Positions 11,677 to 50,586 of a stretch of DNA of 64,000 bases are shown here, in pieces. Source of the DNA: a virus. Each line of letters starts with the position of its first letter. Position 1 is the stretch's first letter. The notes below the pieces were generated by a model. That model saw nothing but the letters and a program-made list of their open reading frames with translations, searched no databases and was not told the DNA's origin. The translations under genes and the position numbers were made by a program. The stretch covers positions 32,920 to 96,919 of the IMG/VR virus record IMGVR_UViG_3300032092_003271. One strand, written 5' to 3'.

Positions 11677-11677
11677 A

Positions 11678-21662: not shown

Positions 21663-24600
21663 ATGGCAAATCCATATAAAAATCCACAAACACCTTTATT
21701 AGCGGTTGGAACTTTCTCAGTTCAACCAAGTCAGACATTTGGTACTAATTTTAGTATATATAGTGTTGGTGGTTATATGGAAGTTTATGAACTTCAGGAT
21801 TTAATTTATACAATCCCAACTGGATCTCAAGGAGATATAGAATTTTCAGGTAATACAATTCCAATACAATTCCAAAAAGGTAGTGGATCGGTTTTCTCAC
21901 CTGACGTTTTAACATTAAATTCGGATAATATTTCGTCAGGTCGTAGAAGACTTGGTATGTTGGCGTATGTTTATTCAACACAAGAAATATTCCAATATAA
22001 TATCCCAAATTATACGACACTTTGGAATAACGCATTGGCGGCTTCAGGACCTGGTGGACCAACCGTACTACAATCAAAATTTGGAACCACAGTAAAAAGT
22101 AATTCAGCTGCAGGACAAGCGTTAATTAATGCTTGGACAGGATCAACAATTCAGGGTCACAGTGGTGGAACTGCCAATTCTAATTGGAGATTATTAGACA
22201 CAGGTGGATGTTGTATTACAGGATTTACATACAACAATGACAATAGTTTCACTATATACGATGATAATGGTGGTGTATTTACCGCATCTTTTGATGTTGT
22301 TACAGGATTGACAGTATCAGGAGGATCTTTAATTGTTAATGGTGTTAATATTACAGGTGACACATTTACAACAGGAGGTACATATTTTAGTGCAACAAGT
22401 ACAATAGATTTATATGACAATCAAGGGGGTATTGTTACAATTACAGGTATAACGGCATCAGGTGTTGCAGGATCAAACGGATCTTCAGGTTCTAGCGGTA
22501 CTTCAGGAACATCAGGAACATCAGGATCTAATGGATCTTCAGGTATATCCGGTTCTTCAGGATCTAGTGGGACTAGCGGAACATCAGGTGTAAGCGGTTT
22601 ATCAGGAACGAGCGGTTCTTCAGGTTCTTCAGGTTCTTCAGGAATTTCAGGATCTTCAGGGACTTCAGGAACTAGAGGTTCTTCAGGGACTTCAGGAACT
22701 TCAGGGACTAGAGGTTCTTCAGGTAGTTCAGGAAGTGGTGGTACAAGCGGTACAAGCGGAGTTAGTGGTGCGTCAGGAACTAGCGGTACAAACGGTACAA
22801 GCGGTAGTTCAGGAACATCAGGAAGTAGTGGTACAAACGGTACTTCAGGAACATCAGGAACTTCTGGTACAGGTGGTACTTCAGGTATAAACGGACAATC
22901 AAATTCATTATTCCCATATAACGCAAGAGTAGATATCCAATCAGGAGATCCAGGTAATACAAATATTATTTGGAATAATGTAACACAATCGGCATCAACA
23001 CAAATAAATATTTCACATTTAGATAATGATAATGATGATATTGATATATTTTTGGGGTTAATTCCAAGTGGAACAACAATTATTATCCAAGACCAAATTA
23101 ATTCAACTGAATTTCAAAAATGGATTGTTGGAGTTGGTGTTGAAGCGGCTCCCAATTCATATTGGACTTTTCCTGTTACATTAGTATCATCAACCATTGA
23201 ATTTACAGGTGGGGAAAATATATTATTTATTATAGGACAATTACCTTCTGGAACAAGTGGGGTATCAGGAACATCAGGAACATCAGGATCTAATGGTTCT
23301 TCAGGTACGTCAGGAAATAGCGGTACAGACGGAACTTCAGGGTCTAGTGGTTCTTCAGGAAGTAGTGGTTCTTCAGGAAGAAGTGGTTCTTCAGGTACGT
23401 CAGGAACTAGCGGTATAGATGGAAACGATTCTTCGAATAGTGGTAGATGGGGATATGAGGGCATTTCTACTACTCCCGGACCTGGTCGTTTTGGGACGGA
23501 TAACCCGGTAATGAGTTTAATTGGGTATGTCTACATAAATTCAGAAGCCGAAAACGGTGTAGATTATTCTACATGGCTTTCAGGAGTAGATAGTATACAA
23601 AACCTTGGATTCCCTGTTTCTTTACAAATTACACAGGTAGGTTCTAACAATATTATCGGTATATGGGAAGTTGTTTCTATTACTTCAACAGGTAGTGTTT
23701 ACGAGTTTCAAGTTGACCCGCCATTTGTTACAAATGGTACTATAACAGATACTTGTACAATATCATGGGTATATAATGGGATCAGTGGTTCTTCAGGTTC
23801 TTCAGGAATTTCAGGATCTTCAGGAATTTCAGGTTCTTCAGGTTCTTCAGGTTCTTCAGGTTCTTCAGGAATTTCAGGATCTTCAGGGACTTCAGGAACT
23901 AGAGGTTCTTCAGGGACTTCAGGGACTAGAGGTTCTTCAGGTAGTTCAGGTTCTTCAGGGACTTCAGGGACTAGAGGTTCTTCAGGGACTTCAGGGGCTT
24001 CAGTTGCCGTTAATGGTATCACAAATTACGTTGTTAAATTTACAGGGTCAACAGGTATCGGTAATAGTCAAATTTTTGATAATGGAACCACAGTAAGTAT
24101 CGGTACATCCGCATCGACTAGTAATTACAAATTAGATGTTCGTGGAGCAACCATTATGTCTGCAACAACAGGAACAAGTCTAACTGTAATTAGTTCAGGT
24201 AACAGTACATCGGCACCCGTACTTTCAGTCCAAGGATCACAAGGCGAATTGTTTAGTGTTACGGATAGTTTAATTGGATCTTTATTTTCCGTTAATGACA
24301 TTTCAGGTTTACCTATACTGGAGGTATTTTCTGATAGTACCACAATAATTGGTAACTATTTAGCGCCTTCATTATATACGACAACAAAAGTAACATCGAT
24401 AACTGCATCAACTGGAACAACAATATATTCAATACCGATCAGTGCATACACATCTTCATTTATTGATTATTATGTAAGTGGAGCCACAGGTATGAGAGCA
24501 GGTAATATTATGGCAATATGGAGCGGGACTACTGTACAATCAACAGATAATTCAACCGCAGACATCGGTAGTACAACACCTTTAACATTTGGGTTTTTGG

Positions 24601-26920: not shown

Positions 26921-29062
26921 ATGGCAAATGAATTTGTTGCAAGGCGTGGTATAACATCTTTGGGTGGTATTACATTACCATATACGGGAGTAAGCTCCAC
27001 ATATACAATCAATACAAACAATTATTTCATTGATTGTACAAGTGGGACATTTACTGTCACCCTTCCGACTGCGGTTGGTATTGCGGGTCAAACTTTTATA
27101 ATAAAAAATAGCGGAGCAGGAACAATAACCGTTGCAACGACAGGTGGTCAAAGTATAGATGGGACTACAACAAAAACATTAACACAATACGAGTCAATAA
27201 CCGTACAAAGTGACGGATCCAATTGGGCTATTGGTAGTACCGCTGAAACGGGAGGATCGGCAATACCAGGTTCAAACAATCAACTATTAACTTCAGATGG
27301 TGCAGGTGGTGCGATTGCAGAATCATTATTAACGTTTGATGGTACAATTACGTCACCGTATTTAAATGTCAATTCAGTAAAAATCGGAAGGGGTAATAAC
27401 AATGTATCAACAAATATTTCAATTGGCGGGATTGCGTTTAGTTCTGGATCAACAGGGTGTAATAATACTGCGATAGGTTTAAATTCTCTTAGTGCTAACA
27501 CAACAGGATCTTTCAATATTGCGATAGGAGGATCCACTTTAAGCGCATCAACTATAGGTAATAGAAATATTGCAATTGGTCACCAATCTCTTCAATCAGG
27601 TGCCGGACTTTGTAATAACGTAGCGATTGGATATAAGTCAGGGGCTCGTTTAGGTAACAATCTCACTCCAACCGATAATATTTTTATTGGGTGTCAAGCT
27701 GGTTACGGTGCAAATACAGGAAATGTTAGTTTTGGTAATATATTATCTGATAATATTGCTATTGGCAAAAAAGCAGGATGTAGTATAGGAAGTAAATACA
27801 ATCCCTCAATATATTGTGGTAATAGTGGATATCCTGATTATATCAATGAGTATGCCCCGGGTTGGGCAACTAGTGGTAAAAATGTTTTTATAGGAAACTA
27901 CGCAGGACAAAATGCCACACCACCATCACCCTGTTCCCCAGCCGCAACAATAATAGGATATAATACGGCAATTGGTCATTGTTCAATGGCCTCTACCACA
28001 TATGGTAAATTAAATACTGCAATAGGATATGCATCTTTAAAATCTAATACCACAGGTAACTACAACGTAGCGATTGGGTTACATTCTCTTTGTTCTAATA
28101 CGTCGGGAAATTTAAACGTAGCAATAGGTACTTGTGCGTTACGTTTAAATACGACCGGAATTCAAAATAATGCGATGGGGTTTAGATCACTAGGAAAAAA
28201 TACATCCGGGCTTAGGAACACGGCAATAGGATATAATACTTTATACGCAAATACGACAGGTACTGATAACTTGGCACTTGGTCATCGTTCTTTATTATTT
28301 AACACTACGGGAGGTAATAACATTGGTTTAGGGGTTTATGCATTACGAAATAATACTACTGGAAACCGTAATACCGCAATAGGTTCAAACGCGTTACGGT
28401 GCAATACTACATGTTCAGATAACACAGCAATAGGGTACTTTGCTTTAGCTTCAAATGATATCTCAAATTTTAACACAGCTATAGGGTCCAATTCCCAAAG
28501 GAATTCCAGCACAGGTGGTGCTAATACTTCAATAGGAACGGATAGTTTAAGGTTTAACACAACAGGTGGTGGTAATAATGCAATAGGTTCCCGTGCTTTA
28601 TATGCTAACACAACAGGTGATGGTAATACAGCAATAGGTAGGAATACTTTATGTTCAAACACAACTGGATTTTTTAACGTAGCTATAGGATTTTATTCTT
28701 TAAATAAAAATACAAATGGCTCACGTAATATAGCAATAGGTAGAGATTCTTTATATGGAAGAACATCCAATTGTGATACAATTGCTATTGGATATAAGGC
28801 TTTTCGTGGTGGTGGTGGTCCATTTTTTCCTGATACTTGTACTACATCCCACAATATTGGTATTGGTGCATATGTAAATTTTGCATGTAATACAGTAGGT
28901 TCTGTTATTATAGGTAGATGTGCTACATCTACGGCAAGTAATCAATTTGTGATTGGTAGTACTACTAATATAGTAGGAGCCGTTACCACAGAAACTTGTT
29001 CTGCAACTAAAACATGGTCTGTAGTAATTAATGGAGTAGCACAAAAAATTCTACTTGCTTAA
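26921..29062 (+). CDS. Tail fibre with YadA-head-like NxAIG repeats
   Basis: A 713-residue trimeric-adhesin-like fibre. The N-terminal part (1-115) is a beta domain common to phage fibres (TFTVTLPTAVGIAGQTFIIKNSG). From about residue 165 to 615 it is built of 20 or more repeats of the type NTAIG-x-SL-x-NTTG-x-N-x-AIG, the pattern of YadA/trimeric-autotransporter heads, which form left-handed beta-rolls. The C-terminus (VIGSTTNIVGAVTTETC...) could be the trimerisation or attachment end. The repeats are rich in Asn and Thr, similar to autotransporter regions glycosylated by BAHT enzymes (family knowledge), and a BAHT-like domain is encoded 4 kb away. Confidence 0.8.
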   Translation: MANEFVARRGITSLGGITLPYTGVSSTYTINTNNYFIDCTSGTFTVTLPTAVGIAGQTFIIKNSGAGTITVATTGGQSIDGTTTKTLTQYESITVQSDGSNWAIGSTAETGGSAIPGSNNQLLTSDGAGGAIAESLLTFDGTITSPYLNVNSVKIGRGNNNVSTNISIGGIAFSSGSTGCNNTAIGLNSLSANTTGSFNIAIGGSTLSASTIGNRNIAIGHQSLQSGAGLCNNVAIGYKSGARLGNNLTPTDNIFIGCQAGYGANTGNVSFGNILSDNIAIGKKAGCSIGSKYNPSIYCGNSGYPDYINEYAPGWATSGKNVFIGNYAGQNATPPSPCSPAATIIGYNTAIGHCSMASTTYGKLNTAIGYASLKSNTTGNYNVAIGLHSLCSNTSGNLNVAIGTCALRLNTTGIQNNAMGFRSLGKNTSGLRNTAIGYNTLYANTTGTDNLALGHRSLLFNTTGGNNIGLGVYALRNNTTGNRNTAIGSNALRCNTTCSDNTAIGYFALASNDISNFNTAIGSNSQRNSSTGGANTSIGTDSLRFNTTGGGNNAIGSRALYANTTGDGNTAIGRNTLCSNTTGFFNVAIGFYSLNKNTNGSRNIAIGRDSLYGRTSNCDTIAIGYKAFRGGGGPFFPDTCTTSHNIGIGAYVNFACNTVGSVIIGRCATSTASNQFVIGSTTNIVGAVTTETCSATKTWSVVINGVAQKILLA
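27418..28760 (+). repeat. YadA-head-like protein repeats
   Basis: Degenerate repeats of roughly 23 to 24 codons with conserved AIG and NTTG. DNA copies are diverged, so this is an old expansion maintained at the protein level. Confidence 0.75.
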
Positions 29063-29942: not shown

Positions 29943-29949
29943 TATTTAT
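29943..29949 (+). promoter_or_regulatory. TATTTAT motif
   Basis: The copy ends 12 bases before an ATG and is directly after the sulfotransferase stop. All flanking genes point the same way, so it sits on the coding strand. Confidence 0.4.
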
Positions 29950-29961
29950 AAAAAAAACAAA

Positions 29962-30198
29962 ATGGAAGAAACACAAACAACAGAACAAGTGCAACAACAT
30001 ATTAGTGCGGCATTTGACTCGGTTAATTTAATTAACGAAGAAATCACTAAAGAAATGACCGATGAACGTAAAAACACAATAAAACGTAATGGTGATCATC
30101 TTGAAATTATGATGGCAAAAGGTTGGTTTTTATCGGGATGTACTGAACAACAGATTATCGATATTAATAATTCTATTACTACGTCAAAGTCGTATTAA
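29962..30198 (+). CDS. Small hypothetical protein
   Basis: A 78-residue, mostly helical acidic protein (EETQTTEQVQQHISAAFDSVN... IIDINNSITT). The ATG at 29962 is preferred to an upstream one that overlaps the sulfotransferase gene by 80 bases, and it follows a TATTTAT motif. No known family is recognised. Its position between sulfotransferase and GT9-like genes may be incidental. Confidence 0.55.
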   Translation: MEETQTTEQVQQHISAAFDSVNLINEEITKEMTDERKNTIKRNGDHLEIMMAKGWFLSGCTEQQIIDINNSITTSKSY

Positions 30199-30210
30199 AA
30201 AATATTATAA

Positions 30211-31089: not shown

Positions 31090-31091
31090 TT

Positions 31092-31544
31092 ATGATATAT
31101 TGGTTTACAGGTCAGCCTGGTGCGGGAAAAACCTCAATCGCAAAATCCTTAATCGAAAAATTACCAAATAACACGTTCCATGTTGATGGTGACGATTTAA
31201 GAGAAATCTTTAATAACAAAGATTATAGTGAAACGGGTAGAAGAAAAAATATTGAGTTAGCTCAACACCTAACACATTTCTTACACAATAAAGGAAATAA
31301 TGTTTTGGTTAGTTTGGTTTCACCGTATAGAGATCAAAGAGAAGACTTTAAAAATAAATTAAATGGGTCTATAATTGAGATATATGTCCATACTGAACAT
31401 ATAAGAGGACGGGAAGATTTCCGTGTCAAAAATTATGAAGAACCTATTGATAATTTTTTAGATATGGATACATCTGATGTTCTAATAGAAACATGTGTTA
31501 ATCAAATTCTAAATTATGAAAAATTACATAGCAAAGGCGGATAA
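31092..31544 (+). CDS. cysC: Adenylylsulfate (APS) kinase
   Basis: Phosphorylates APS to PAPS, the donor used by sulfotransferases. At 150 residues it is compact for CysC. It has the P-loop GQPGAGKT (7-14), the FHVDGDDLRE substrate segment (29-38), NIELAQHLTHFLHNKGNNVLV, and the VSLVSPYRDQRE motif. EIYVHTEHIRGREDFR follows, as in the family lid region. Upstream is a sulfotransferase, downstream a nucleotidyltransferase that overlaps its last 29 bases. Alternatives such as another small-molecule kinase are unlikely given the motif set. Confidence 0.88.
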   Translation: MIYWFTGQPGAGKTSIAKSLIEKLPNNTFHVDGDDLREIFNNKDYSETGRRKNIELAQHLTHFLHNKGNNVLVSLVSPYRDQREDFKNKLNGSIIEIYVHTEHIRGREDFRVKNYEEPIDNFLDMDTSDVLIETCVNQILNYEKLHSKGG

Positions 31545-31914
31545 AAAAACATCATCCACTGATAGACAATATTCTATGTTTGTGGGGCGATGGCAGCCCC
31601 TTCATTTAGGACATCAATGGTTATTTAACCAAGCTTTAGAAGAAGGTAAGAATGTTCTAATTTGTATTAGAGATGTTAAACCTGACGAAAAAAATCCTTT
31701 TACGCCTGAAGAGGTAAAATCTAATATAGAAAACCATTATGGTAATTTAATAACACAAGAACGTGTTAAAGTTATTGTGATTCCTGATATTGAGTCAATC
31801 AATTATGGTAGAGGCGTTGGTTATGATATTATCGAACATGTACCACCCCAAGATATTCACGATATTTCAGCCACTAAAGTTAGAGAACAAATGAGACAGG
31901 AGGGTAAGTTATGA
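31516..31914 (+). CDS. HIGH-type nucleotidyltransferase next to APS kinase
   Basis: A 132-residue nucleotidyltransferase with FVGRWQPLHLGHQWL (HLGH at 30-33) and ISATKVREQ (117-125), the two signatures of the cytidylyltransferase/NMNAT/ATP-sulfurylase superfamily. The start overlaps cysC by 29 bases; an internal ATG at residue 21 would also retain the core motif. Its tight coupling to cysC suggests a role in the same pathway, for example forming APS from ATP and sulfate, but NMN or other substrates are equally allowed by these motifs. It is not full-length ATP sulfurylase. Confidence 0.65.
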   Translation: MKNYIAKADKKTSSTDRQYSMFVGRWQPLHLGHQWLFNQALEEGKNVLICIRDVKPDEKNPFTPEEVKSNIENHYGNLITQERVKVIVIPDIESINYGRGVGYDIIEHVPPQDIHDISATKVREQMRQEGKL

Positions 31915-32354: not shown

Positions 32355-35147
32355 TTACCTATTATCAATATATAAATTTACTTCACTATAATACTCAATA
32401 AAGTGATCGTTCCATAGATCCCACTTTATATCAATACCATCAACTGAAAATACTTGATGGTTTGTAAATTCCTTTAAATATAAATCTCTAAACTTTCTAA
32501 ATTTGTTTTTGGTTTCTTTATTATGAAGATGCCACTCACCTGAGATTTTTTTAACATTGTTTTTAATCCAATTAAAGTTTTCTTCCGTAAAGATATTATA
32601 TTCACCACCTTCAGAATCTGTTTTAAGAAAATCAATTTTAGTAATACCATGTTCTTTAATTAAAGAATCAAATCTAACTGAATCCATTTGTGTTTGTACA
32701 CCAAGTTCTGCAGTAAACATATTACCCGTGTTTACAACCCCATCAGTGTCGGTAATTCCTTTATTAATGTGAACTACAAAATCTTTGTTTGTGTTTTTAA
32801 CTAAGTATGGGAACTCCTCATCACAAGGTTCAATAGAATAAATTACCGAAGGTTTTTTGTTTAATATAGAATATGTGAATGGACCAATACTTGCACCAAT
32901 GTCCATAACAACATCACCTTCTTCTACGGTAAAAAACTTCTCATAAATTCGTTCCTCAAAGATTTCTTTATTAATTGCCCATCTAAACCAATCATTAGAT
33001 TTACCCCAATCAAAATCAATTCTATCCCCAAGTAGTAAGTCAATTTTATCTATGACCATTTGTGATGTTATATTTTTGGTGCACTCAAATTGACGACTTG
33101 TGTTTTTATGTAGTGGACACCAATACCAATCACCAGCATCAAATTTTTCTTTATTAAAACATCCGTGACATACGTTCTCATTAATCACTCGATGAACTCC
33201 TGTTAACATCTCAGCGTTTTTTTCACTAAATCCTGAAATCAAAATTAAAGGTAATCCTGTAGACCATGCCAACCAAGATAATCCTGAACCTAAACCAATG
33301 AAGAATTCACAAGTTGCAAGATCATCAATTACTTCTTGAATTGATCCACCCTTAAATTTAGTTGCTCCATTTGGATTTTTGTTACCCATATATCCACTAT
33401 CTTCTTTTGAATATATCATAACTTCGTATCCTTTGTCTGTTAGATACTTAACCACTTCTTCCCAACCCAAAAGGTTGTTCCAATATTTTGATTGTGCCGT
33501 TGAATGGACCCCAATACCAATTTTCTTTTTCTTTGGTACCTTAGGTATTTTTAATTTTGGTTTCACTTCATTATAAGGTAACCCTAAAATATCAGACGCA
33601 GTTTGTTGTAATGGTATGTGTCTAAAATCATTTGGGTGTAAACTATAATTAACATTATCACCATCAAAGAACCAACCTATTTTATACAACGCATATAAAT
33701 CGTGTACTGGTTCACCAGGGTTTATAAATTTTATTTGTGGATATTGATCAATAAACAACTCATTCATAAATGTAGAAACAATCAATTCACAATTATGTTT
33801 TTTTCTAAACTCCTCACATTGTGGGAACCAAGCCATTGTATCGCCTAATGATTTAGATTCAAGTGCAATATAGACTCTTTTCTTGTTAAAGTTTGGTACG
33901 TGTTCGTAAACTAATTCATCTCCATCAAAAACTTTACAAGTAATATTTTTAAAATACTCAACAATAAGTTTTGACCACATATTTGCCTTAATCTCAGATT
34001 GATACATTAAATTATTTAAATCCCAAAACTCGACTCTATATAATTTTTGTGAACTACCTTTAATATCGATAGTTGGGTTACCAACAAAATGAAAACTAAA
34101 ACTTACATTATCTCTTGGTTCTTTATGCGTAATTTCAGTTTCTTCAAATGTTTTTATGTAAAGATTTTTGGTATCTTCGGATCTATAATGTTTATTGATT
34201 ATTTTAACTGACTTATAGATATCGATTAATCTTTTTGTTATTATCGACCAATCAAAATCAATCCTTGTTTCTATGGTTTCATGAAATAACTTACCCCAAT
34301 TTTCAATAACATATTTAAGACCACTAACTACTGACTCGGTGGATCTTCCAATCTTTCTTAATCCACCTATTTTTGGTGTTCCATCGTAAGTACCAACTGT
34401 TGGTAGTCCACATGACATAGCTTCTAATAATGTTAGATTAGGGTGTCCCGCTTCTAAAATCGATGGGTGTGCAAATATGGTATGTGATCGATATAATTCT
34501 CTTATTGATTCTTCGTCAGGGTTTCCATAAACCACATTTAACTTTTTATATTCTAATAAGTCAGGGTTAGCATCAAAAAAGTTTTTGTTGTTATCAGGAC
34601 CCGCAACTGTAATCTCAAGATCTAATTCTTTTGCTGCTTCTATGGCATATCTAAAACCTTTTCTATCAATTGATTGGTTATATGCAAAACCATTATTTGC
34701 AAGACATAATATTTTATGATTGAGCGATCCTTTTGGGTTTTGGTTATCAAAAAAATTAGTATCAACACCATGAGACAAATAAAATAATTTATCAGTTTCA
34801 ACAAAATAATCTACCAAAAATTCCGCATGACAAAATGATATAACAGAATTCTTTATTGCTTTTAAATTTAAATTATAAAGATCCGATTCTCTTCCATATT
34901 CAACAACGTGATGATCATGTAAAGAGAAAATATATGGTATTCCCATTTCATGGGCCTCAATAGCCAAGTTTGCAACATGGATATGAATTATGTCTGAGTT
35001 TCTATCTACTTCACTTAAATATTTAATTTCAGACTCATGACCTTGTTCTATTGAGTTTAAGTGGTAATTCCAAATTACCTTTTCAATTGCCCCCCAACCA
35101 TTTGGTGGTATTGCTATTAAACCTGGTGTTACTTGTGTTATCTTCAT
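32355..35147 (-). CDS. GT4-like + BAHT-like O-heptosyltransferase + FkbM methyltransferase fusion
   Basis: A 930-residue three-part enzyme. Residues 1-320 are a GT-B family 4-like domain (HPSILEAGHPNLTLLEAMSCG near 227-247). Residues about 420-710 match bacterial autotransporter heptosyltransferases (Aah/TibC): VYIALESKSLGDTMAWFP, IGVHSTAQSKYWNN, FIGLGSGLSWLAWS and four cysteines at 660, 663, 677 and 689 in the family's metal-binding finger order (CHGC...WCP...FEC). Residues about 740-930 are an FkbM-type SAM methyltransferase (VMDIGASIGPF, FLKTDSEGGEY). BAHT enzymes transfer heptose to Ser on autotransporter repeats. Here repeat fibres are encoded nearby, so self-fibre glycosylation is proposed (inference). 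It is the last gene of its operon. Confidence 0.82.
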   Translation of the reverse strand: MKITQVTPGLIAIPPNGWGAIEKVIWNYHLNSIEQGHESEIKYLSEVDRNSDIIHIHVANLAIEAHEMGIPYIFSLHDHHVVEYGRESDLYNLNLKAIKNSVISFCHAEFLVDYFVETDKLFYLSHGVDTNFFDNQNPKGSLNHKILCLANNGFAYNQSIDRKGFRYAIEAAKELDLEITVAGPDNNKNFFDANPDLLEYKKLNVVYGNPDEESIRELYRSHTIFAHPSILEAGHPNLTLLEAMSCGLPTVGTYDGTPKIGGLRKIGRSTESVVSGLKYVIENWGKLFHETIETRIDFDWSIITKRLIDIYKSVKIINKHYRSEDTKNLYIKTFEETEITHKEPRDNVSFSFHFVGNPTIDIKGSSQKLYRVEFWDLNNLMYQSEIKANMWSKLIVEYFKNITCKVFDGDELVYEHVPNFNKKRVYIALESKSLGDTMAWFPQCEEFRKKHNCELIVSTFMNELFIDQYPQIKFINPGEPVHDLYALYKIGWFFDGDNVNYSLHPNDFRHIPLQQTASDILGLPYNEVKPKLKIPKVPKKKKIGIGVHSTAQSKYWNNLLGWEEVVKYLTDKGYEVMIYSKEDSGYMGNKNPNGATKFKGGSIQEVIDDLATCEFFIGLGSGLSWLAWSTGLPLILISGFSEKNAEMLTGVHRVINENVCHGCFNKEKFDAGDWYWCPLHKNTSRQFECTKNITSQMVIDKIDLLLGDRIDFDWGKSNDWFRWAINKEIFEERIYEKFFTVEEGDVVMDIGASIGPFTYSILNKKPSVIYSIEPCDEEFPYLVKNTNKDFVVHINKGITDTDGVVNTGNMFTAELGVQTQMDSVRFDSLIKEHGITKIDFLKTDSEGGEYNIFTEENFNWIKNNVKKISGEWHLHNKETKNKFRKFRDLYLKEFTNHQVFSVDGIDIKWDLWNDHFIEYYSEVNLYIDNR

Positions 35148-35148
35148 A

Positions 35149-36870
35149 TTATGTAAATTCTAAATAACCGTATATGTTTTTATTTTCCATTTCATATAAA
35201 AACTCATCAGTTTCTGAGTTATATACTTTTATTTTTTTAATATTCTCCCAATAGATATTATATGACCACGCCCAAGAATAATTAAGGTAATGTATTATCT
35301 CTTCTTCATGATTATCAAATTCTATTATTATTTTTCTAATAACTCTATGGTTATTATAGTTAAATGATAAAATAGCTAAAGAATCTTGATTGTTAACTTT
35401 ATAAATTTTTGTGGTACAACCTTCATAAAACTCAGCTAAAGTTGATTGACTTGTTTCTGTATTCCACATTGTGTTAGGAAAATCTAAATTCATTTGGTCA
35501 CTACCATACTTACTTAAAATTAAATTGGTATTTGAATTCATTAGATTATGGAACATATAAACCTCTACTGATTTAAACTCATCACCAAATCCGTTATTTT
35601 TTAAATATTTTTTATATGATTCTTCACTATCAACTCTATTTATTTTTTCTAAAAAGAAATCAATTTCTGAGAAAAAATAATGAAAAGATATATCTTTTTC
35701 ATTAAAATAAAATAACGATTTTTTATTTTCGTTTTTACATAGTTCAGGAATTGTTTTCATAAATTCATATGATTCATCAGAAAACAAATCATCAACTTCC
35801 ATTCTTTGGAAATGTGTGTACCCAAGTGATTTTGCTAAATCCAAACAATTAAATAGATTACACATTACTGATAACCCATGTCTTTGTAATTCGGGAGTGA
35901 CTTCATGAATAGTAAATCCTTCATACGATTTCCATAGATCAACATAACTTACATTTTCATATTGTTCTTTAAACAATTTGTTTTCACTATTATATAAAAA
36001 ATAATCAACTTGTTCTATAAGATCTTGTGGTGGAACTTTATTAGAAACTAAAAGAATTTTATGATCGTGTTTTTTTAAATTACTAATTGCATCTCTAAGT
36101 TTAGATAATAAAGAATCATTGGATACAAAGCAATCTATAATTGTAATTGTTTTAATGTTTTTATTATAATCTTCTTTTAATCTATTTTTTACTTTGTTAA
36201 TATTTAATTCTTTTTCTTCCTCCGATAATGTTGAGAATATTCCTTTTTTAGAAATTCTGTAGTGACCCCCAAATATGTTTAAAAATTTTATTTTACCTTG
36301 TTTACTCAATTCATAATTAAGTGGCCAATCAACAAAAGGTAATCCCTCAAAATATTTTTTTATTATATTTTTTTTATTCCTAAAAACCCTACCAAAACCA
36401 ACATAATTAGTTTCTAATAAATCTTCAGTTGTAATATCTTCTTTTAGTGAAATTATAAATGCATCTTCTTCTTTAGGTGATGCATAATCTTCGTATAGAT
36501 ATTTTGTCGCAGTAAAAGTCATTACGTAGTCTGTGTTTTCATCTAAAAAATCAACCTGTTTTTGTAATTTATCTTTATCACCAAACAAATCATCACCATC
36601 TAAATACGCAATATATTCTGATTCAGAATTATCTAAAAGTAGTTTTATATTATTAAGAGCACCTAAATTTTCAGACCCATCCAAAATTTTAATTTCAGGG
36701 TATTTTAATTTTAATTCATTTAATTTTTCTTGAGTTTTATCAGTTGAGTTATCATCTCTAATTATAACATCAAAATCAAAATTAGTTTTTTGTTTAAAAA
36801 TTGAGTCGATACAATCAAAGACGTATTGTTCAAAATTATATAATGGTACTATAACTGATAATTTTTTCAT
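35149..36870 (-). CDS. GT2 glycosyltransferase with second GT-A-like domain
   Basis: The N-terminal part of this 573-residue protein is a classical family 2 domain: LSVIVPLYNFEQYV, IIRDDNSTDKTQ and YLDGDDLFGD (D91-x-D93-D94). From about residue 240 a second domain starts with TITIIDCFVSNDSLL and includes HFQRMEVDDLF, which looks like another GT-A acidic site (D-D near a strand). The C-terminal 100 residues are beta-rich and Trp/Tyr-rich, as in carbohydrate-binding ends. It overlaps the NeuD/PglD-like gene by 4 bases. Donors are unknown. Confidence 0.75.
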   Translation of the reverse strand: MKKLSVIVPLYNFEQYVFDCIDSIFKQKTNFDFDVIIRDDNSTDKTQEKLNELKLKYPEIKILDGSENLGALNNIKLLLDNSESEYIAYLDGDDLFGDKDKLQKQVDFLDENTDYVMTFTATKYLYEDYASPKEEDAFIISLKEDITTEDLLETNYVGFGRVFRNKKNIIKKYFEGLPFVDWPLNYELSKQGKIKFLNIFGGHYRISKKGIFSTLSEEEKELNINKVKNRLKEDYNKNIKTITIIDCFVSNDSLLSKLRDAISNLKKHDHKILLVSNKVPPQDLIEQVDYFLYNSENKLFKEQYENVSYVDLWKSYEGFTIHEVTPELQRHGLSVMCNLFNCLDLAKSLGYTHFQRMEVDDLFSDESYEFMKTIPELCKNENKKSLFYFNEKDISFHYFFSEIDFFLEKINRVDSEESYKKYLKNNGFGDEFKSVEVYMFHNLMNSNTNLILSKYGSDQMNLDFPNTMWNTETSQSTLAEFYEGCTTKIYKVNNQDSLAILSFNYNNHRVIRKIIIEFDNHEEEIIHYLNYSWAWSYNIYWENIKKIKVYNSETDEFLYEMENKNIYGYLEFT

Positions 36871-37445
36871 TTATATATTTTTTTTGCAGGGACACCAACG
36901 TATGTTCCAGGTTCGTTTATATTCGATACTACTGCAGCACCCATACCTATTGTGGATAATGAATGGACACTAATTTTTTCTCTAATAGATGAATTATTTC
37001 CCATATAGACACAATCATATATTTTAACATTACCGGAAACTATTGATCCTGGCATCATAGAAAAATAATCACCTATTTCACAATCATGACCAATTTGGTT
37101 TCCCCTATTTAATAATGCGTGTTTACCAATTTTTATGTTTGTTGTTATTATTGAATTTGCTCCAATAAAAGAACCTTCACCAATTTTGACATCATCAGAT
37201 ATGATTGCGGTTGGGTGTATCCATGTGAAATATTTTGTATTTTTTGGTAATCTATTTGCAACGTCAAATCTATTTTTTGGGTCAGCAATTGCTATGATTA
37301 TTTCATATTCTTTGGTGTTAAATTCTGACAATGGTTTTGTGTGTTCATTAACATATTGGTCATCAACAAAACAAGTAATCTTTTCCCCCATCTGAAACAT
37401 AACCTCTCTTGCGTGGCCTCCATAACCTATCAGTGCTTTTTTCAT
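36867..37445 (-). CDS. NeuD/PglD-like sugar acyltransferase
   Basis: The 192-residue protein has the PglD_N Rossmann-like start LIGYGGHAREV (5-15) and a left-handed beta-helix made of hexapeptides (IGEGSFIGANSIITTNIKIGKHA). The catalytic His is placed at H120 in GNQIGHDCEIGD, as in the PglD family, and the end GVPAKKIYK is typical. Such enzymes acetylate amino-sugar nucleotides (PglD on UDP-4-amino-sugars) or sialic acid derivatives. The start of the downstream GT2 gene overlaps its stop. Together with the WlbB-like gene it gives the phage two sugar acyltransferases. Confidence 0.85.
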   Translation of the reverse strand: MKKALIGYGGHAREVMFQMGEKITCFVDDQYVNEHTKPLSEFNTKEYEIIIAIADPKNRFDVANRLPKNTKYFTWIHPTAIISDDVKIGEGSFIGANSIITTNIKIGKHALLNRGNQIGHDCEIGDYFSMMPGSIVSGNVKIYDCVYMGNNSSIREKISVHSLSTIGMGAAVVSNINEPGTYVGVPAKKIYK

Positions 37446-38749
37446 TAGTTAAATCTATATTTTTTAGGATCAAAATAATGTTCATACCAAGATGAAACAT
37501 TTTCATTATAGTAACTCTTCCAAGTATGTGGGGACATACCAATCCACCTTTCTTGTATTGATCTGTTATTATTAGTTTCAATTTTTAATTTAGATAAATT
37601 GGGTAGTGTATTAATGTAAGAATTATTTGCCCACCAAAAATTACCTGAAAAATAATTTTTAAACTCATATTCTAAAAATTTAAAATACTCAACATATAAG
37701 GCTCCTGACAAGTCACAATCTTTATTTTTTAAGTCTTTAAATGGTATACTCCAATTTTCAATACAAAAATATTCTAAACATTCTCTCCATGATTCTATAT
37801 TAGAATCATAAGGTCTTGAGGTTCCTTTTGTGTGAAAATAAAATGTACTTCCACATGGGTTTAAATATGAATAATTTTGTAATTTAATTAAAGTTAAAAA
37901 TTCATCTTCATTTTTTTCATACCAACAAATATTAATTTTCTTATCAATGTCATGGGTTTTAACAATTTTGTTAAACAAATTAAAATCATCATACGATTCT
38001 GTAATAACATTATAAAATATTTGATCAGATCTTTTATATAATCCAAAATCTGATAACTTTTGGAGTTGAGATTGTAATACGTGAACCCAATTATTTTGTA
38101 AAAAATTATGGGAGAATATGGAAACTTTATGATTTTTTATTAAACCAATTCCTCCCCATAAACTATAATGTGTATTTTGTAGTAATTTATGGAATTCATT
38201 ATCTTTTGAGTATTTGTCGTCTTTTTCTTTTGCAAAAAACGTATAATATTCATTATAGTTTTCTATAATTTCGTCCCAAAATTTGTATACAAAAATATCA
38301 TATTCTTTAGTAACATCACTCTCAACAACATCATGAAATGCCAAATAACCGTCATCTGCCAAAAATTGTTTAAATTTATCATAATCATTTTTCACCCCAT
38401 TGTATGAGTGATCCCCGTCAATAAAAATTAAATCAAATTCAACACCTAAATTTTTAATAATTTCAACTGTGTCGTTTGATGTTGAATCCCCAATAATATA
38501 GTTAAAGTTTGGATATGTTTGTTTTATAGTATCAAAATTTTCGTGGTGTTTAATGTCAATTGCAATTACCTTTTCATATAAATGACATAATGCGACTGAA
38601 GTACCACCAAAGTTACTACCAATTTCTAAGGCGTATTTTCTTTTTTTTGTATTACTTAAATGATCTAAAAACAATTTGAATTCTTCGGGTTTTTGTTCAA
38701 TGTTAAATTTTAAACACGAATTCCAAATAGTATTAAAATTATAATTCAT
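37445..38749 (-). CDS. Methyltransf_24-like methyltransferase fused to a glycosyltransferase-like domain
   Basis: A 434-residue fusion. Residues about 30-190 form a class I SAM methyltransferase with ALEIGSNFGGTSVAL, a VIAIDIK strand and IFIDGDHSYNGVKNDY. The C-terminal half (about 205-434) begins VSIFSHNFLQNNWVHVL and contains FYFHTKGTS, a motif I associate with polysaccharide glycosyltransferase-like proteins, then SGNFWWANNSYI. The second domain's function is therefore tentative. It overlaps the next gene by 1 base. The arrangement suggests that sugar transfer is followed by methylation of the glycan by one polypeptide (inference). Confidence 0.7.
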   Translation of the reverse strand: MNYNFNTIWNSCLKFNIEQKPEEFKLFLDHLSNTKKRKYALEIGSNFGGTSVALCHLYEKVIAIDIKHHENFDTIKQTYPNFNYIIGDSTSNDTVEIIKNLGVEFDLIFIDGDHSYNGVKNDYDKFKQFLADDGYLAFHDVVESDVTKEYDIFVYKFWDEIIENYNEYYTFFAKEKDDKYSKDNEFHKLLQNTHYSLWGGIGLIKNHKVSIFSHNFLQNNWVHVLQSQLQKLSDFGLYKRSDQIFYNVITESYDDFNLFNKIVKTHDIDKKINICWYEKNEDEFLTLIKLQNYSYLNPCGSTFYFHTKGTSRPYDSNIESWRECLEYFCIENWSIPFKDLKNKDCDLSGALYVEYFKFLEYEFKNYFSGNFWWANNSYINTLPNLSKLKIETNNNRSIQERWIGMSPHTWKSYYNENVSSWYEHYFDPKKYRFN

Positions 38750-38750
38750 T

Positions 38751-39545
38751 CTAATTACTGTTGTTTAATGAGTAGGAGCTTTTACTTGAGTCCCAAGCTA
38801 AATTTATAATGTGAAAATTTTTATGACATAAACTTTTATATTTTTTTGACCATCTAATGGCAAACTCTAATTCAGTTCTCATTTCATTTGTGTCGTAATC
38901 GGTTGAAAATTCACCAATACTTAAAAATCTTTTGGCGTGGTTAACACCAGGTCTTAATGAATAACTAGGCCAATTTGTATACATCATCCAAAGAGTTGGG
39001 ATCATTGTTTGTGTTGCCGAAACCTCATCTAAAAATAAATGATCATTTATTGGTCTATTTGGATCATAATACCATTCCCAATAATCTCCAATAGTTTTAG
39101 GTTGTATTTCGGGTGGAAAATTTTTATATGACTGAGAAAACCCAACATAACCATATTCTTCATGGTTTTCTAAAAGGTCTATGGTTTCTTTAATATTAAA
39201 ATGATTCACAAAAAGATAATCATCCTCCAACATAAAAAAATAATCGGTCTCTGTGTCAATTAGTTTTTTTCTCATTTCATTTAAAATTCTTGAGTGTCTA
39301 TACCCATCCTCAAAAGAATTTTTATAAAAATGTGTCACTATTATATTTTTATTTGGAAACTTATCCTGTAATAGATGTTCCATATTTATTTTGTCCATTT
39401 CAGATGACGAGTCATCAAAAAATATAATATTGTCAATAATCTCCAAATCCTTACAAAATGTGACAAAACCACGAAGAGTCATTTGTAATAATTCAAATCT
39501 TTTTGATGACGTTATTGTTAAAGAAATTTTTTTGTTATTGTACAT
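38751..39545 (-). CDS. GT-A (GT2-like) glycosyltransferase
   Basis: The start at 39545 is preferred because it lies 1 base beyond the upstream stop, the usual spacing here; an ATG seven codons earlier would overlap. The 264-residue protein begins with ISLTITSSKRFELL and carries FFDDSSSE, then FFMLEDDYLFVNHF, a metal-binding acidic motif typical of family 2-type enzymes. A YVGFSQSYKNFP loop and conserved Trp residues follow. Donor and acceptor are not predictable. Confidence 0.7.
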   Translation of the reverse strand: MYNNKKISLTITSSKRFELLQMTLRGFVTFCKDLEIIDNIIFFDDSSSEMDKINMEHLLQDKFPNKNIIVTHFYKNSFEDGYRHSRILNEMRKKLIDTETDYFFMLEDDYLFVNHFNIKETIDLLENHEEYGYVGFSQSYKNFPPEIQPKTIGDYWEWYYDPNRPINDHLFLDEVSATQTMIPTLWMMYTNWPSYSLRPGVNHAKRFLSIGEFSTDYDTNEMRTELEFAIRWSKKYKSLCHKNFHIINLAWDSSKSSYSLNNSN

Positions 39546-39546
39546 A

Positions 39547-42144
39547 TTATTGTTTGTATACTTCAAATTTAGATAAGTCAGGATAAGGTAATTCTAAATC
39601 CTCATTATGTTTTGGCATTCCGTCTACTTTATAAAATTGGTTCATAAGAAGTAAACCTCTTGATGCTATTTCTGGCATCATATAAAAATTCCAACCCAAC
39701 ATGTCAAAGTCATCTTCATGATACGAACATTCGTTTCTTCCCGAATATCTCGCTCGTTTAAACCATTTGTATGCCTCATAATCGTCAGTAATAATTGCAC
39801 CACCTTTACCAAGTTTTAAATGTTTGTATGGTCCTGTAAATGACAAACACATATGTGTATTTGGAATGTACATGTCTGTTGTAAATCTTAACGCACTATC
39901 CCATACTCTTGTTGGGTATAATTGATATGCGCCTTTTAATGTTAAACTATTAACTGATTCAAATTCAACCTTTCCCCCTGCATGTATAATCTCACAAGGA
40001 ACTGAAGGGTATGTACGTGATGGAATTCTTATAGTTTGACCTTTTATGTTTTCATACATTAAAGCCAAAAACAAAGCGTTACTTTGGTTATCTACAGTAA
40101 CTGCATATGGGGCTCCTGTGTAATCACAAAGAACTTGTTCAAAATCTTTAGTTACTTGATAAGTTGATTTCCCAAGTGATCCAGGTCTTTTAAATCTTTC
40201 ATTTTTTGGTTTTGCAAAAATAACACCATGTTCAACTGACTCATCAGATCTTATTTGTTTTCCCATTTCAAACACTATAATTTTATATTCAAAATCATTT
40301 CGTTTTAATTTCTCAATTATTGGTGTAATTTCATTGTTATAATTTCCATGAAACTCAACCATAAATCTATCAACTAATTTTATTTGTTCATCAGTCACAG
40401 ATTCAAAGAAAGGATATTCACCACCCTCAATATCACATTTTAATAATGATATTCTTTCATAATTGTTATCTTTTAAAATATCATCTAAAGTTATTGTATC
40501 ACACTCAATAAGATTATTTAATTGACCGTAGTTAGGATCATCAGTTCCAAAATAATTTGACCCAATAGTTGTGTTCTCCATTGAGAATCTAAATGGAATT
40601 TTTGTATGTTCTTTATAAATTGGATTCATGTAGATCACAGATCTTTCATTATCATCGTCCAACAAAGTTTCAATACTATCCCTTAGGTAAGGATTTGCTT
40701 CTACTAATATTACTTTCTTTGCATTAATTGAATACATGTATTTTGCAAATAACCCAACATTGGCACCAATATCTATAACTGTATTCAAATTATCTAAATC
40801 TAAACCACTAAAACATCTGTCAATAAAAAACTCGTGATAATTAACATAGTTACAATCAAATGGTTTAAAATTGAATGATGGGATATTTGGTTTTACATCA
40901 TTAACAACCAATTCTTTTGAACCTAATAATTCATTGTTTAAATTATAAAACTCAATTCTAAATCCTCTGAAATTTTTCATTCCTTCAAATTTCATAACAT
41001 GGGTTGGAATTGGGATAATAAAATAAGATAATGGTTCTATAATATTTAAATTGAACCAATATAGTGGTGCGTTTGATGTCATACATCTTATGGTAATGTT
41101 CAGGTTTATTTTTTCTGAATAACCATAATTTAATATGATTTTATTTTCGATACCAACCCAACTAACATCAAACATATTTCCTACGTTTGATATACCTAAA
41201 GTGTTTAATAGTATTTGTATGTCTTTATTAATGTCTCCTGTCATAAATTTAATATTTTCATCGTTATTATACTTACCACAATAAACGTCCAAATTAAACA
41301 TCATCATTGGTAATTCGTATTTGATTGCTTCTTTAATTGCAATCGGGTTTAGTTCTTTGTTAAATCTGTCTCCTTTTGATGGGAATAAAAATAAATCAGA
41401 TGCTTGTAAAAAAGTATCAACATCTGATCTTTCACCCCAAACCACACAGTTATCTGGTTTGTCTTTCATTAAGGGCTCCCAATAATGTCTGAAGTTGTCG
41501 GCTTGATTTCCAATAAAGTGAAATAATATTTTTTCATCTTTTAATTGTTTTGCCATCTCAAAGACATAACCTTGATTTTTTCTTTCAGTAAATAGACCAA
41601 CAATCACAACATGTTTCCATTCAGGATCCAACATAAATTGTTCTTGAGCCCATTGTTTATCCGGTTTTACAATGTCAATTGGATATTCAATAATTTCGTA
41701 AGGTACATCAAACATTGAGTATCTAAATGCGTTAAATGGACTTACAAAAATAAATTTATCGGGAAACCATCTTTTGTTTGTTACAGGAATACTTGAATCG
41801 TGAGTCGTTTCAAATAGTTTGTATGTTCTTTCTTTAATAAATAATTTCTCATTAATTTCTTCAGGTATAAAATGTTCACAAAATTCTTCCAAACAAACGA
41901 TGTCTGGTTGAAATCCATGGATCAAATCAAATATTTTATTTTTATCTTCCCCTAAAACAAATAAATTTTCAGGTCCAATAAGATCTTTAATTCTATTTTT
42001 TTGAACAACAAAGGCGTCTCCATGCCAACTCCACTCAACACATTTGATTATATAATCATCTTTTAATAATTCTATTTTATTTACCAATACTTGCGGTAAC
42101 CCTCCTGTGGATAGATGAGGTGCGACAAATAAGATCTTTTTCAT
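39547..42144 (-). CDS. GT4-like + FkbM methyltransferase + DegT-like aminotransferase fusion
   Basis: An 865-residue three-part protein. Residues 1-340 are GT-B (FVAPHLSTGGLPQVL, VVIVGLFTERKNQGY, FLFPSKGDRFNKE). About 435-640 is an FkbM methyltransferase (VIDIGANVGLFAKY, LLKCDIEGGEYPFF). About 650-865 resembles the first two-thirds of DegT/DnrJ/EryC1 sugar aminotransferases: AVTVDNQSNALFLAL, RIPSRTYPSVPCEIIHAGG, VWDSAL, a candidate PLP lysine K774 in SFTGPYKHLKLGKGG, and LGWNFYMMPEIASRG. It lacks the family's C-terminal portion and the usual GEGG is GKGG. It could supply the transamination step for a 3-amino sugar, or be a binding domain (inference). It heads the minus-strand operon. Confidence 0.78.
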   Translation of the reverse strand: MKKILFVAPHLSTGGLPQVLVNKIELLKDDYIIKCVEWSWHGDAFVVQKNRIKDLIGPENLFVLGEDKNKIFDLIHGFQPDIVCLEEFCEHFIPEEINEKLFIKERTYKLFETTHDSSIPVTNKRWFPDKFIFVSPFNAFRYSMFDVPYEIIEYPIDIVKPDKQWAQEQFMLDPEWKHVVIVGLFTERKNQGYVFEMAKQLKDEKILFHFIGNQADNFRHYWEPLMKDKPDNCVVWGERSDVDTFLQASDLFLFPSKGDRFNKELNPIAIKEAIKYELPMMMFNLDVYCGKYNNDENIKFMTGDINKDIQILLNTLGISNVGNMFDVSWVGIENKIILNYGYSEKINLNITIRCMTSNAPLYWFNLNIIEPLSYFIIPIPTHVMKFEGMKNFRGFRIEFYNLNNELLGSKELVVNDVKPNIPSFNFKPFDCNYVNYHEFFIDRCFSGLDLDNLNTVIDIGANVGLFAKYMYSINAKKVILVEANPYLRDSIETLLDDDNERSVIYMNPIYKEHTKIPFRFSMENTTIGSNYFGTDDPNYGQLNNLIECDTITLDDILKDNNYERISLLKCDIEGGEYPFFESVTDEQIKLVDRFMVEFHGNYNNEITPIIEKLKRNDFEYKIIVFEMGKQIRSDESVEHGVIFAKPKNERFKRPGSLGKSTYQVTKDFEQVLCDYTGAPYAVTVDNQSNALFLALMYENIKGQTIRIPSRTYPSVPCEIIHAGGKVEFESVNSLTLKGAYQLYPTRVWDSALRFTTDMYIPNTHMCLSFTGPYKHLKLGKGGAIITDDYEAYKWFKRARYSGRNECSYHEDDFDMLGWNFYMMPEIASRGLLLMNQFYKVDGMPKHNEDLELPYPDLSKFEVYKQ

Positions 42145-46543: not shown

Positions 46544-48409
46544 ATGCCAGTTTATAATAGATTAACGGATAGACAACAGGTTTCCGCGGTAACCTTAAAC
46601 GATATCATTCACGTAGTTGTTACAGGAGATACTTCTCAAAGCCCTCAGGGTTCTTCATATTTTGCCCCATTAAGTTATATACAAGCAATCTTGAGTGGTG
46701 CTAGTGGTACACAAGGTACTTCAGGTACATCAGGTACGAGGGGTAGTTCAGGATCTAGTGGTAGTTCAGGTACATCAGGTACGAGGGGTTCATCAGGAAC
46801 ATCAGGTTCTAGTGGTTCTAGTGGTACATCGGGTACGACAGGATCTAGCGGTAGTAGTGGATCATCAGGTAGTAGTGGTACAAGTGGGACTAGCGGTTCA
46901 TCGGGTTCAAGTGGAACTAGCGGATCTAATGGATCTTCAGGTACTTCAGGAACTAGAGGTTCTTCAGGTACTTCGGGATCAAGTGGTACAACCGGATCTT
47001 CAGGTAGTTCAGGCGTATCTTTTGGTACATCAGGTACAAGTGGTTTATCAGGAAACGATTCTTCAAATAGTGGTAGGTGGAGATATGTAGGAGTAGGTAA
47101 TAACCCCTCACCAGGACTTTTTGAGACGGATAATACAACAATATCTTCAATAGCCTTTGTCTACATAAATACACAGGATGAAAACGGTTCAGATTATACT
47201 AGATGGTTTTTAGGGGTAGATACTATACAAGACCTTGGTAACACTGTCTATTTACAAATCACACAAGTAGGTTCTAATAATATTATTGGTATCTGGACAG
47301 TTAGATCCATTACTTCATCAGGTAGTGTTTACGAGTTTGAAGTTGATAATCCAGCACTTGTTGCAGATGGTACTATAACAGATACTTGCACAATATCATG
47401 GGTATTTAATGGACTAAATGGTGAAACAGGATCAAGTGGAATATCCGGATCTTCAGGATCAAGTGGTAGTTCAGGTACTAGAGGTTCATCAGGTAGTTCA
47501 GGATCAAGTGGAATATCCGGATCTTCAGGATCAAGTGGTAGTTCAGGTACTAGAGGTTCATCAGGTAGTTCAGGATCAAGTGGAATATCCGGATCTTCAG
47601 GATCAAGTGGTACTAGTGGTGTAAATGGTACTGAGGGATCTAACGGTAGTAGTGGATCATCAGGTAGTTCAGGGTCTTCAGGTTCAAGTGGATCATCAGG
47701 AACATCCCCTTTACCCTCAGAAGTTTATACAGTAGAAAATACGGGTAACACTAAGTTTTATGTTACTTTTGTTGATTCAAATAACTTAGTTGCTGCACCT
47801 GAAAGTGTTTATACAAATACGGGTATAAGTTACAATCCAAGTACAGATATTTTAGAACTCATAACAGGATATCGAAGTGGTGATGGAACAGTTTCGGCCC
47901 CACCTTATAGTTTTATTGCAGATACTAATACGGGAATATATAGGATTGGTACCGATAATTTAGGTTTTGCAACAAACGGTACTAGACGAATGTCTATTGA
48001 TAGTACCGGTAGAATTTTAATGGGTAATGGTGATGAATCTTCAGGATCAAACTTTATAATTCCTTTAGGTGGGTACGCGGCAACATCTAATGCAACTCCA
48101 GCAACACTTATAACATTAGCAACAGACACTGATGGTGTGTATACTGTAGAGGCGTTTGTTGCGGGGGCCACAGTAACAGGAAGTAATGCGATCGGTGGAA
48201 TTATAAGCGCAACTTTTTTAAATAACGGAGGATCTCTTAGTCTTATCGGATCGGTACAAGGATCGGTACAAGAAAACTATGCGGGATCACCGACCTTCAC
48301 ACTTCTTGCGTCAGGAACTAATATAATATTACAAGTCACAGGAGTTGCGTCGACCACTATAAATTGGTTTGGTAAAATTAAATATATTACGGGATCTAGA
48401 GCCATTTAA
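46544..48409 (+). CDS. Collagen-like tail fibre with Gly-X-Ser repeats (second copy)
   Basis: A 621-residue fibre. A 50-residue N-terminal anchor (PVYNRLTDRQQVSAVTLNDIIHVVVTGD) leads into a Gly-X-Ser block, then the NDSSNSGRW globular module (about 169-288) also found in the 1005-residue fibre, then a second Gly-X-Ser block including a 72-base perfect tandem repeat. The C-terminal tip contains ADTNTGIYRIGTDNLGFATNGTRRMSIDS, a widespread phage fibre-tip sequence. The gene is followed by a GT60-like glycosyltransferase gene. Ser and Thr in the triplets are candidate glycosylation sites (inference). Confidence 0.82.
   Translation: MPVYNRLTDRQQVSAVTLNDIIHVVVTGDTSQSPQGSSYFAPLSYIQAILSGASGTQGTSGTSGTRGSSGSSGSSGTSGTRGSSGTSGSSGSSGTSGTTGSSGSSGSSGSSGTSGTSGSSGSSGTSGSNGSSGTSGTRGSSGTSGSSGTTGSSGSSGVSFGTSGTSGLSGNDSSNSGRWRYVGVGNNPSPGLFETDNTTISSIAFVYINTQDENGSDYTRWFLGVDTIQDLGNTVYLQITQVGSNNIIGIWTVRSITSSGSVYEFEVDNPALVADGTITDTCTISWVFNGLNGETGSSGISGSSGSSGSSGTRGSSGSSGSSGISGSSGSSGSSGTRGSSGSSGSSGISGSSGSSGTSGVNGTEGSNGSSGSSGSSGSSGSSGSSGTSPLPSEVYTVENTGNTKFYVTFVDSNNLVAAPESVYTNTGISYNPSTDILELITGYRSGDGTVSAPPYSFIADTNTGIYRIGTDNLGFATNGTRRMSIDSTGRILMGNGDESSGSNFIIPLGGYAATSNATPATLITLATDTDGVYTVEAFVAGATVTGSNAIGGIISATFLNNGGSLSLIGSVQGSVQENYAGSPTFTLLASGTNIILQVTGVASTTINWFGKIKYITGSRAI
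46692..47050 (+). repeat. Collagen-like Gly-X-Ser block
   Basis: About 39 Gly-X-Ser-type triplets in frame, ending at the shared NDSSNSGRW module. Confidence 0.85.
47429..47612 (+). repeat. 72-bp perfect tandem repeat, about 2.5 copies
   Basis: Units start at 47429, 47501 and 47573; the third is truncated after about 40 bases. Each unit encodes 24 residues (eight collagen-like triplets), so copy number changes keep the frame and change fibre length. Confidence 0.9.
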
Positions 48410-50585: not shown

Positions 50586-50586
50586 G

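Follow-up and report, generated by a model that had tools for sequence, protein, structure and literature searches.

A TibC-type domain in a phage GT4–FkbM fusion and its genetic pairing with serine-rich collagen-like fibres

The minus-strand open reading frame (ORF) 32355-35147 lies in a 64,000-nucleotide stretch of viral DNA (IMG/VR record IMGVR_UViG_3300032092_003271, positions 32,920 to 96,919; "the window" below). It runs uninterrupted from ATG to stop, and its 930-residue product is, by sequence, a fusion of a GT4-like glycosyltransferase, a TibC-type domain and an FkbM methyltransferase. In bacteria, TibC-type enzymes are known to assist adhesins; here, hundreds of phage contigs encode them, and they form a separate clade linked to fibres that consist of little besides Gly, Ser and Thr. 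Since in related viruses the enzyme usually stands alongside such long collagen-like fibres, the virus probably sugar-coats its own fibres. The virus is large and water-borne; its contig is that of a genuine T4-like phage, encoding gp20, gp23 and a T4-type terminase.

The fusion protein and its TibC-type domain

Pfam analysis of the 930-residue protein reports GT4 at residues 161-258, a weak GT9 match at 539-640 and FkbM at 749-890, so that both domains which a first-pass annotation had placed on either side of an Aah/TibC-type domain are real by this measure. The FkbM assignment passes two cut-offs (PF05050, 47.3 bits against 22.7; TIGR01444, 41.6 bits against 37.7), and the region is 46% identical to a region in the fibre cluster of Synechococcus phage DSL-LC02. 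The two Aah/TibC-type motifs named by the annotation, IGVHSTAQSKYWNN and GLGSGLSWLAWS, are both found in the protein.

The assignment of the middle domain to the Aah/TibC family is borne out by its profile match. Residues 369-703 score 288 bits against NCBIfam TIGR04414 (hepto_Aah_TibC; 291 bits in a six-frame search), where the curated cut-off is 200 and ordinary bacterial GT9 proteins reach 17-45 bits; the match is therefore more than chance, and the protein belongs, on sequence, to the TIGR04414 family. In a phmmer search against the PDB, the two TibC entries were the sole sequence matches (E 2e-63 over residues 376-701). The GT9 family itself, PF01075, gives 23 bits (E 5e-5). An AlphaFold (AF2) model of the domain (pLDDT 89, pTM 0.88) superposes on TibC (PDB ID: 4RAP) with a TM score of 0.87 over about 375 columns, compared with about 0.5 for WaaC and other GT9 enzymes. 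This fold result is not independent of the TibC structure, because AlphaFold was trained on PDB entries that include it; the sequence results are independent. Profile, sequence and fold together rule out a plain GT9 (WaaC/WaaF) identity. A best match to plain GT9 enzymes and cysteines outside a cluster had been named beforehand as the signs that would speak against the assignment, and neither was seen. In the model of the whole protein an eight-strand barrel (348-416) precedes the GT-B core. TibC has the same arrangement, and loses its activity when the barrel is deleted (PMC4358343). Because the barrel is part of the domain, the domain begins at about residue 348 and not at 420 as first proposed.

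The residues on which TibC depends were located on an alignment on which the TibC numbering was verified (Table 1). In TibC, Asp110 is the candidate base, and mutation of Asp110, Lys230, Trp305 or any of the finger cysteines (339, 342, 358 and 370, which are iron ligands) removes most or all activity (PMC4358343). Equivalents of Asp110, Lys230 and Trp305 are kept in 61 of 61 relatives and all four cysteines in 60 of 61. The finger cysteines of the window protein are where the annotation had put them, at 660, 663, 677 and 689, with a spacing of 3/14/12 (3/16/12 in TibC). The hydrophobic character of the thumb pair (Tyr586-Met587; Phe265-Val266 in TibC) and of Phe687 (TibC Phe368), positions that make contacts within the TibC dodecamer, is retained.

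Two positions near the donor differ. TibC Arg286 binds the adenine N1, and its loss abolishes or greatly cuts activity, while Pro300 determines heptose stereoselectivity (PMC4358343); the equivalents here are Val606 and Gly620. The arginine is present in 10 of 10 bacterial TibC-type sequences (an eleventh "bacterial" row, L218, duplicates the phage-type metagenome-derived row L101) and in 5 of 52 viral relatives, being absent from the other 47. From homology, ADP-heptose would be the default donor; it is not assured, because the adenine-contact arginine is a valine here and is lost in most viral relatives. For the same reason heptose, the sugar implied by the first-pass annotation, is not established as the one transferred. 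A search for an ADP-heptose synthesis gene, in the part of the record's genes that was scanned, gave an epimerase at 8-925 with 229.6 bits for GDP-fucose synthase (cut-off 500) and 33.5 for HldD. No autotransporter is found among the annotated neighbours in the window, the partner genes being phage fibres. Because of the missing arginine and the absent autotransporter partner, the protein is better not classed as a strict BAHT; most likely it works like one.

Scanning IMG/VR with the profile gave at least 499 viral loci with relatives, of which the best 80 were kept. Among named phage records, relatives are encoded by LR756501 (735 kb), LR756504 (636 kb) and Microcystis phage Mel-JY01. Of 795 bacterial genomes, drawn from two phyla, only nine exceed the TIGR04414 cut-off, including two that had served as centres of the sampling. 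The scores fall into bands, with the bacterial TibC group at 484-650 bits and the phage proteins at about 206-380, both above the GT9 range given earlier. In a maximum-likelihood tree two groups part with 100/100 support: one, of 13 rows, holds TibC together with its bacterial relatives, and the other, of phage type, has 58 rows, including six that come from metagenome-assembled genomes. Of 52 phage proteins, 43 are extended at the N-terminus by 250 residues or more and 8 at the C-terminus by 150 residues or more; four proteins (L017, L022, L030 and L031) are about 970 residues long. The three-part fusion of the window therefore recurs.

Two further kinds of relative were seen. An uncultured Selenomonadales genome carries four TIGR04414-type genes in tandem (L106:4126-9207). 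Short relatives of about 303 residues (L135:2254-3159 and L132:111-1025, with G834, G835, G838, G839, G844 and G846) score 110-125 bits, below the TIGR04414 cut-off; they have the LGD motif and the finger cysteines and lack the N-terminal barrel. The phages that carry them have the same DNA polymerase and no collagen match, and in L132 and L135 the gene next to the short relative resembles 30211-31089 of the window.

Association with serine-rich collagen-like fibres

A proline-free, collagen-like ORF of the type (Gly-Ser/Thr-Ser)n is found within about 10 kb of the enzyme at 42 of 52 non-redundant viral loci, at 33 of them within 2.5 kb and at 12 within 200 bp. GSS and GTS make up 73% of the 10,304 triplets; the X position is Ser or Thr in 89% and the Y position Ser in 77%, and proline accounts for less than 1%. 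TibC and AAH modify serine and not threonine (PMC4358343), which agrees with the serine bias of the fibres. A position test within 19 contigs places the enzyme nearer to the collagen match than random positions (combined p 3e-7).

Two samples of contigs were then drawn on other grounds. For the first, 20 contigs, each 68 kb or longer, were selected solely for encoding a DNA polymerase related to that of the window. Both the TIGR04414 and the collagen cut-offs are passed by the same 4 of the 20, and the remaining 16 pass neither (Fisher p 2e-4, or 1e-3 when two near-identical contigs are counted once). This whole-contig test replaced an earlier control at polymerase loci, which had looked weaker because several of its collagen-positive loci belong to contigs in which the enzyme had been found before. 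The second sample comprised 33 contigs picked by a ten-triplet Gly-[Ser/Thr-like]2 DNA pattern; the enzyme is above cut-off in 18, only one of which was previously known. A 210-kb contig (L285), the only one of its kind in the sample, has a long (Gly-Xaa-Thr)n fibre with Thr at 125 of 142 Y positions, and a TIGR04414 match is absent from it.

The closest relative (L006) matches residues 1-708 with 77% identity and has no FkbM domain. It keeps the six-gene cassette in the order of the window, and the genes that follow encode two very large fibres of 334 and 383 collagen-like triplets, in which Ser and Thr occupy nearly 90% of the Y positions. At the N-terminus, the window's collagen-like fibre 21663-24680 shares 51% identity with the 383-triplet fibre. 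Similarly, the N-terminal 104 residues of the YadA-like fibre 26921-29062 are 71% identical to those of the other L006 fibre, L006:12757-16674, a (Gly-Xaa-Ser)334 protein; one adaptor thus carries a YadA-type shaft in the window phage and a Ser-collagen shaft in L006. The record of the isolated phage Mel-JY01 (PP395634.1) apparently begins within a plus-strand Ser-collagen ORF of 202 triplets (L002:2-3049), which is overlaid by antisense hypothetical-protein annotations, and the neighbouring enzyme, WWT39291.1, encoded 1.7 kb from this ORF, is labelled just "methyltransferase FkbM". In the literature searched, which covered few subscription papers, we found no paper reporting that phages encode TibC-type enzymes or that such enzymes are paired with collagen-like fibres.

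Within the window, repeat-rich fibres had been placed 3-10 kb from the enzyme. This holds for the YadA-like fibre (3.3 kb) and for the collagen-like fibre 21663-24680 (7.7 kb); the second collagen-like fibre, 46544-48409, is slightly further away, at 11.4 kb.

Proposed function and its alternatives

The interpretation that we favour, with a fair degree of confidence, is that this phage-type TIGR04414 member, fused to GT4 and FkbM domains, O-glycosylates serine residues in the collagen-like fibres of the phage itself. Its support comes from the identity and fold of the domain, the conservation of the catalytic and finger residues, the recurrence of the fusion, and the genetic linkage to Ser-collagen fibres and co-occurrence with them across phages. 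During infection the TibC-type domain would transfer the first sugar from a nucleotide-sugar donor to serines in the (Gly-Ser/Thr-Ser)n runs, probably acting, as TibC does, as an oligomer stabilised by the metal finger. The GT4 domain and the GT2 enzyme of the cassette may extend the glycan, and decoration may come from the FkbM domain, the NeuD-type acetyltransferase and the second methyltransferase. The order of starting, extending and capping suggested by the first-pass annotation is unproven; capping in cis is optional at best, because L006 does without the FkbM domain. The sugars would stabilise and shield the proline-free fibres. Other collagens rely on proline. Glycosylation stabilises collagen, according to the account of Bann 2000 given in PMC3368898.

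Several observations weigh against this interpretation. On the window's own contig the enzyme is no nearer to a collagen gene than expected by chance (p 0.42), and LR756504, a phage of 636 kb, encodes the enzyme and lacks any collagen match. The linkage could be due in part to a general clustering of fibre and glycan genes; the sampled phages are related, and hence not independent, and the contigs are fragments. The strand-loop-strand repeat that is the target in autotransporters (TIGR04415) gave no match in the window fibres at E 0.1. Finally, the replacement of Arg286 by valine may mean a different donor or a change in activity.

It may be asked whether the fusion and the cassette instead modify a surface polysaccharide of the host (lipopolysaccharide (LPS), capsule or S-layer glycan), for instance to block superinfection, with the proximity of fibres reflecting their usual clustering. 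The composition of the cassette (GT2, GT4, a NeuD-type acetyltransferase and methyltransferases) resembles that of O-antigen genes, GDP-fucose-type genes and a GT11 gene are present further left in the window, and phage heptosyltransferases have previously been interpreted in this way (PMC10747093). However, the domain resembles TibC and not WaaC in profile, sequence and fold, it retains both the metal finger and the barrel needed for TibC activity, and the co-occurrence with Ser-collagen was seen in two independent samplings. We therefore consider a host polysaccharide an unlikely target.

A different protein of the virion might also be what the enzyme glycosylates, for example the YadA-like fibre or the LamG-like proteins, the linkage to collagen being secondary. 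The YadA-like fibre is indeed the nearest repeat fibre, and LR756504 carries the enzyme in the absence of a collagen match. Yet no homologue of the YadA-like fibre passed the threshold near 51 viral relatives, against Ser-collagen ORFs near 42 of 52, and the fibre was rejected as the usual partner; TibC prefers serine over threonine, whereas the conserved loop of this fibre is Thr-rich (Asn-Thr-Thr-Gly loops). The YadA-like fibre, which the first-pass annotation named together with collagen-like fibres, is thus probably not the main target, because it is with (Gly-Xaa-Ser)n collagen-like fibres that the enzyme is genetically partnered across phages, and a different virion substrate appears quite improbable. 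That the glycosyltransferase 48457-49701 (PF11397, E 1e-69) modifies the collagen-like fibre which it follows at 47 bp is more improbable still and was rejected, since relatives of this enzyme occur at 34 of 80 loci of the DNA polymerase and at 0 of the 80 Gly-Ser loci, which are shorter.

If the pairing of enzyme and Ser-collagen fibre is functional, it would provide the enzyme with a substrate class and the puzzling proline-free collagens with a rationale; it would also give phage virion glycosylation a clear enzyme-substrate pair, and offer a compact means of producing collagen-like polymers that carry glycans. More speculatively, and we advance this as a tentative idea, there may be a large undescribed class of aquatic phages with fibres of proline-free Gly-Ser/Thr-Ser collagen in which most serines are sugar-coated, the donor of the TibC-type enzyme is no longer ADP-heptose, and dense O-glycosylation replaces hydroxyproline in the triple helix.

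Neighbouring genes and comparison with known systems

The features of the fusion, the fibres and the cassette are collected in Table 1. The second fusion at the head of the cassette is unusual; it is 865 residues long and is conserved in L006.

Table 1. Coordinates of the fusion protein, its domains and key residues, and of the fibre and cassette genes in the window.
Feature	Position	Strand	Basis
GT4-like + TibC-type (TIGR04414) + FkbM methyltransferase fusion, 930 residues	32355..35147	-	Pfam, NCBIfam, TibC sequence match, model
N-terminal GT4-like glycosyltransferase domain, residues ~1-330	34158..35147	-	Pfam PF13692/PF00534; Foldseek BshA/PimA-type GT4 folds
TibC-type domain, residues ~348-706: N-terminal beta-barrel (348-416) + GT-B catalytic core	33030..34106	-	TIGR04414; TibC phmmer; AF2
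Asp436, equivalent of TibC Asp110 (catalytic base)	33840..33842	-	Alignment; role from PMC4358343
Thr550 and Lys554, equivalents of TibC Thr226 and Lys230 (donor beta-phosphate)	33486..33500	-	Alignment
Trp625, equivalent of TibC Trp305 (sugar O4 contact)	33273..33275	-	Alignment
Four-Cys metal finger, Cys660/663/677/689	33081..33170	-	Alignment; iron ligands in TibC
C-terminal FkbM methyltransferase domain, residues ~715-930	32358..33005	-	PF05050 E 3e-12 (whole protein)
Candidate acceptor, (Gly-Ser/Thr-Ser)n runs of 49, 20 and 25 triplets (94 total) in fibre 21663-24680	22461..24002	+	Repeat count
Candidate acceptor, (Gly-Ser/Thr-Ser)n runs of 36 and 33 triplets (69 total) in fibre 46544-48409	46697..47707	+	Repeat count
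YadA-like fibre	26921..29062	+	Sequence
GT2 glycosyltransferase, cassette	35149..36870	-	PF00535 E 1e-25; order conserved in L006
NeuD/PglD-type sugar acetyltransferase, cassette	36867..37445	-	TIGR03570 172 bits, cut-off 160.8
Methyltransf_24/CmcI-type methyltransferase, cassette	37445..38749	-	PF13578 E 4e-14
Protein of unknown family amid the cassette, GT-A-like by eye	38751..39566	-	No Pfam match; conserved in L006
Second fusion, GT4 + FkbM + DegT/DnrJ/EryC1 aminotransferase part, cassette head	39547..42144	-	Pfam

On the plus strand of the window, 29121-31914 encodes consecutively a sulfotransferase, a GT9-like protein, an APS (adenosine 5'-phosphosulfate)-kinase-like protein and a small nucleotidyltransferase; the phage may thus also make 3'-phosphoadenosine 5'-phosphosulfate (PAPS) and sulfate a glycan or fibre. 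On the minus strand, 8-1985 and 10834-11730 encode proteins like GDP-mannose 4,6-dehydratase and GDP-fucose synthase and a protein of GT11, a fucosyltransferase family. A phage GDP-fucose pathway is possible; the GDP-fucose-type genes lie 30 kb from the fusion. The plus-strand region 48457-52254 holds the PF11397 (GlcNAc) glycosyltransferase that follows the second collagen-like fibre and, downstream of it, a protein with a YibB-like domain.

The nearest known enzymes are TibC of enterotoxigenic Escherichia coli and AAH (BAHT; PDB IDs: 4RAP, 4RB4). The phage domain shares with them the fold and barrel, the catalytic Asp, the Thr, Lys and Trp residues, the four-Cys finger, the hydrophobic thumb pair and a profile score above the cut-off. 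It differs in being encoded by a phage, in its fusion to GT4 and FkbM, in having a collagen-like fibre as partner instead of an autotransporter, in the changes of Arg286 to Val and Pro300 to Gly, and in its separate clade. The LPS heptosyltransferases WaaC and WaaF (GT9) have a GT-B core and a distant homology to the domain, visible in the PF01075 match; unlike the phage domain they lack the barrel and the metal finger, and their structural similarity to it is lower than that of TibC.

To our knowledge, the collagen glycosyltransferase of Mimivirus is unrelated to the TibC-type enzyme. The likeness is that a virus glycosylates its own collagen, there by a lysyl hydroxylase/glycosyltransferase (Luther 2011, as described in PMC8968730); going by that description, the chemistry is one of hydroxylysine in a eukaryotic virus, in contrast to the serine O-glycosylation without a hydroxylase proposed here. 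Glycan-bearing collagen-like proteins of prokaryotes are known from BclA of Bacillus anthracis and BclA1 and BclA3 of Clostridioides difficile (PMC8968730, PMC7157674), which differ in that other glycosyltransferases are used (SgtA for BclA3) and in that the proteins are on the spore surface and not on a virion. Glycosylation of phage structural proteins has been reported for mycobacteriophages (Freeman 2023, as cited in PMC12619734); in that citing account it concerns the C-termini of capsid and tail tube proteins, and neither a TibC-type enzyme nor a pairing with collagen is mentioned there.
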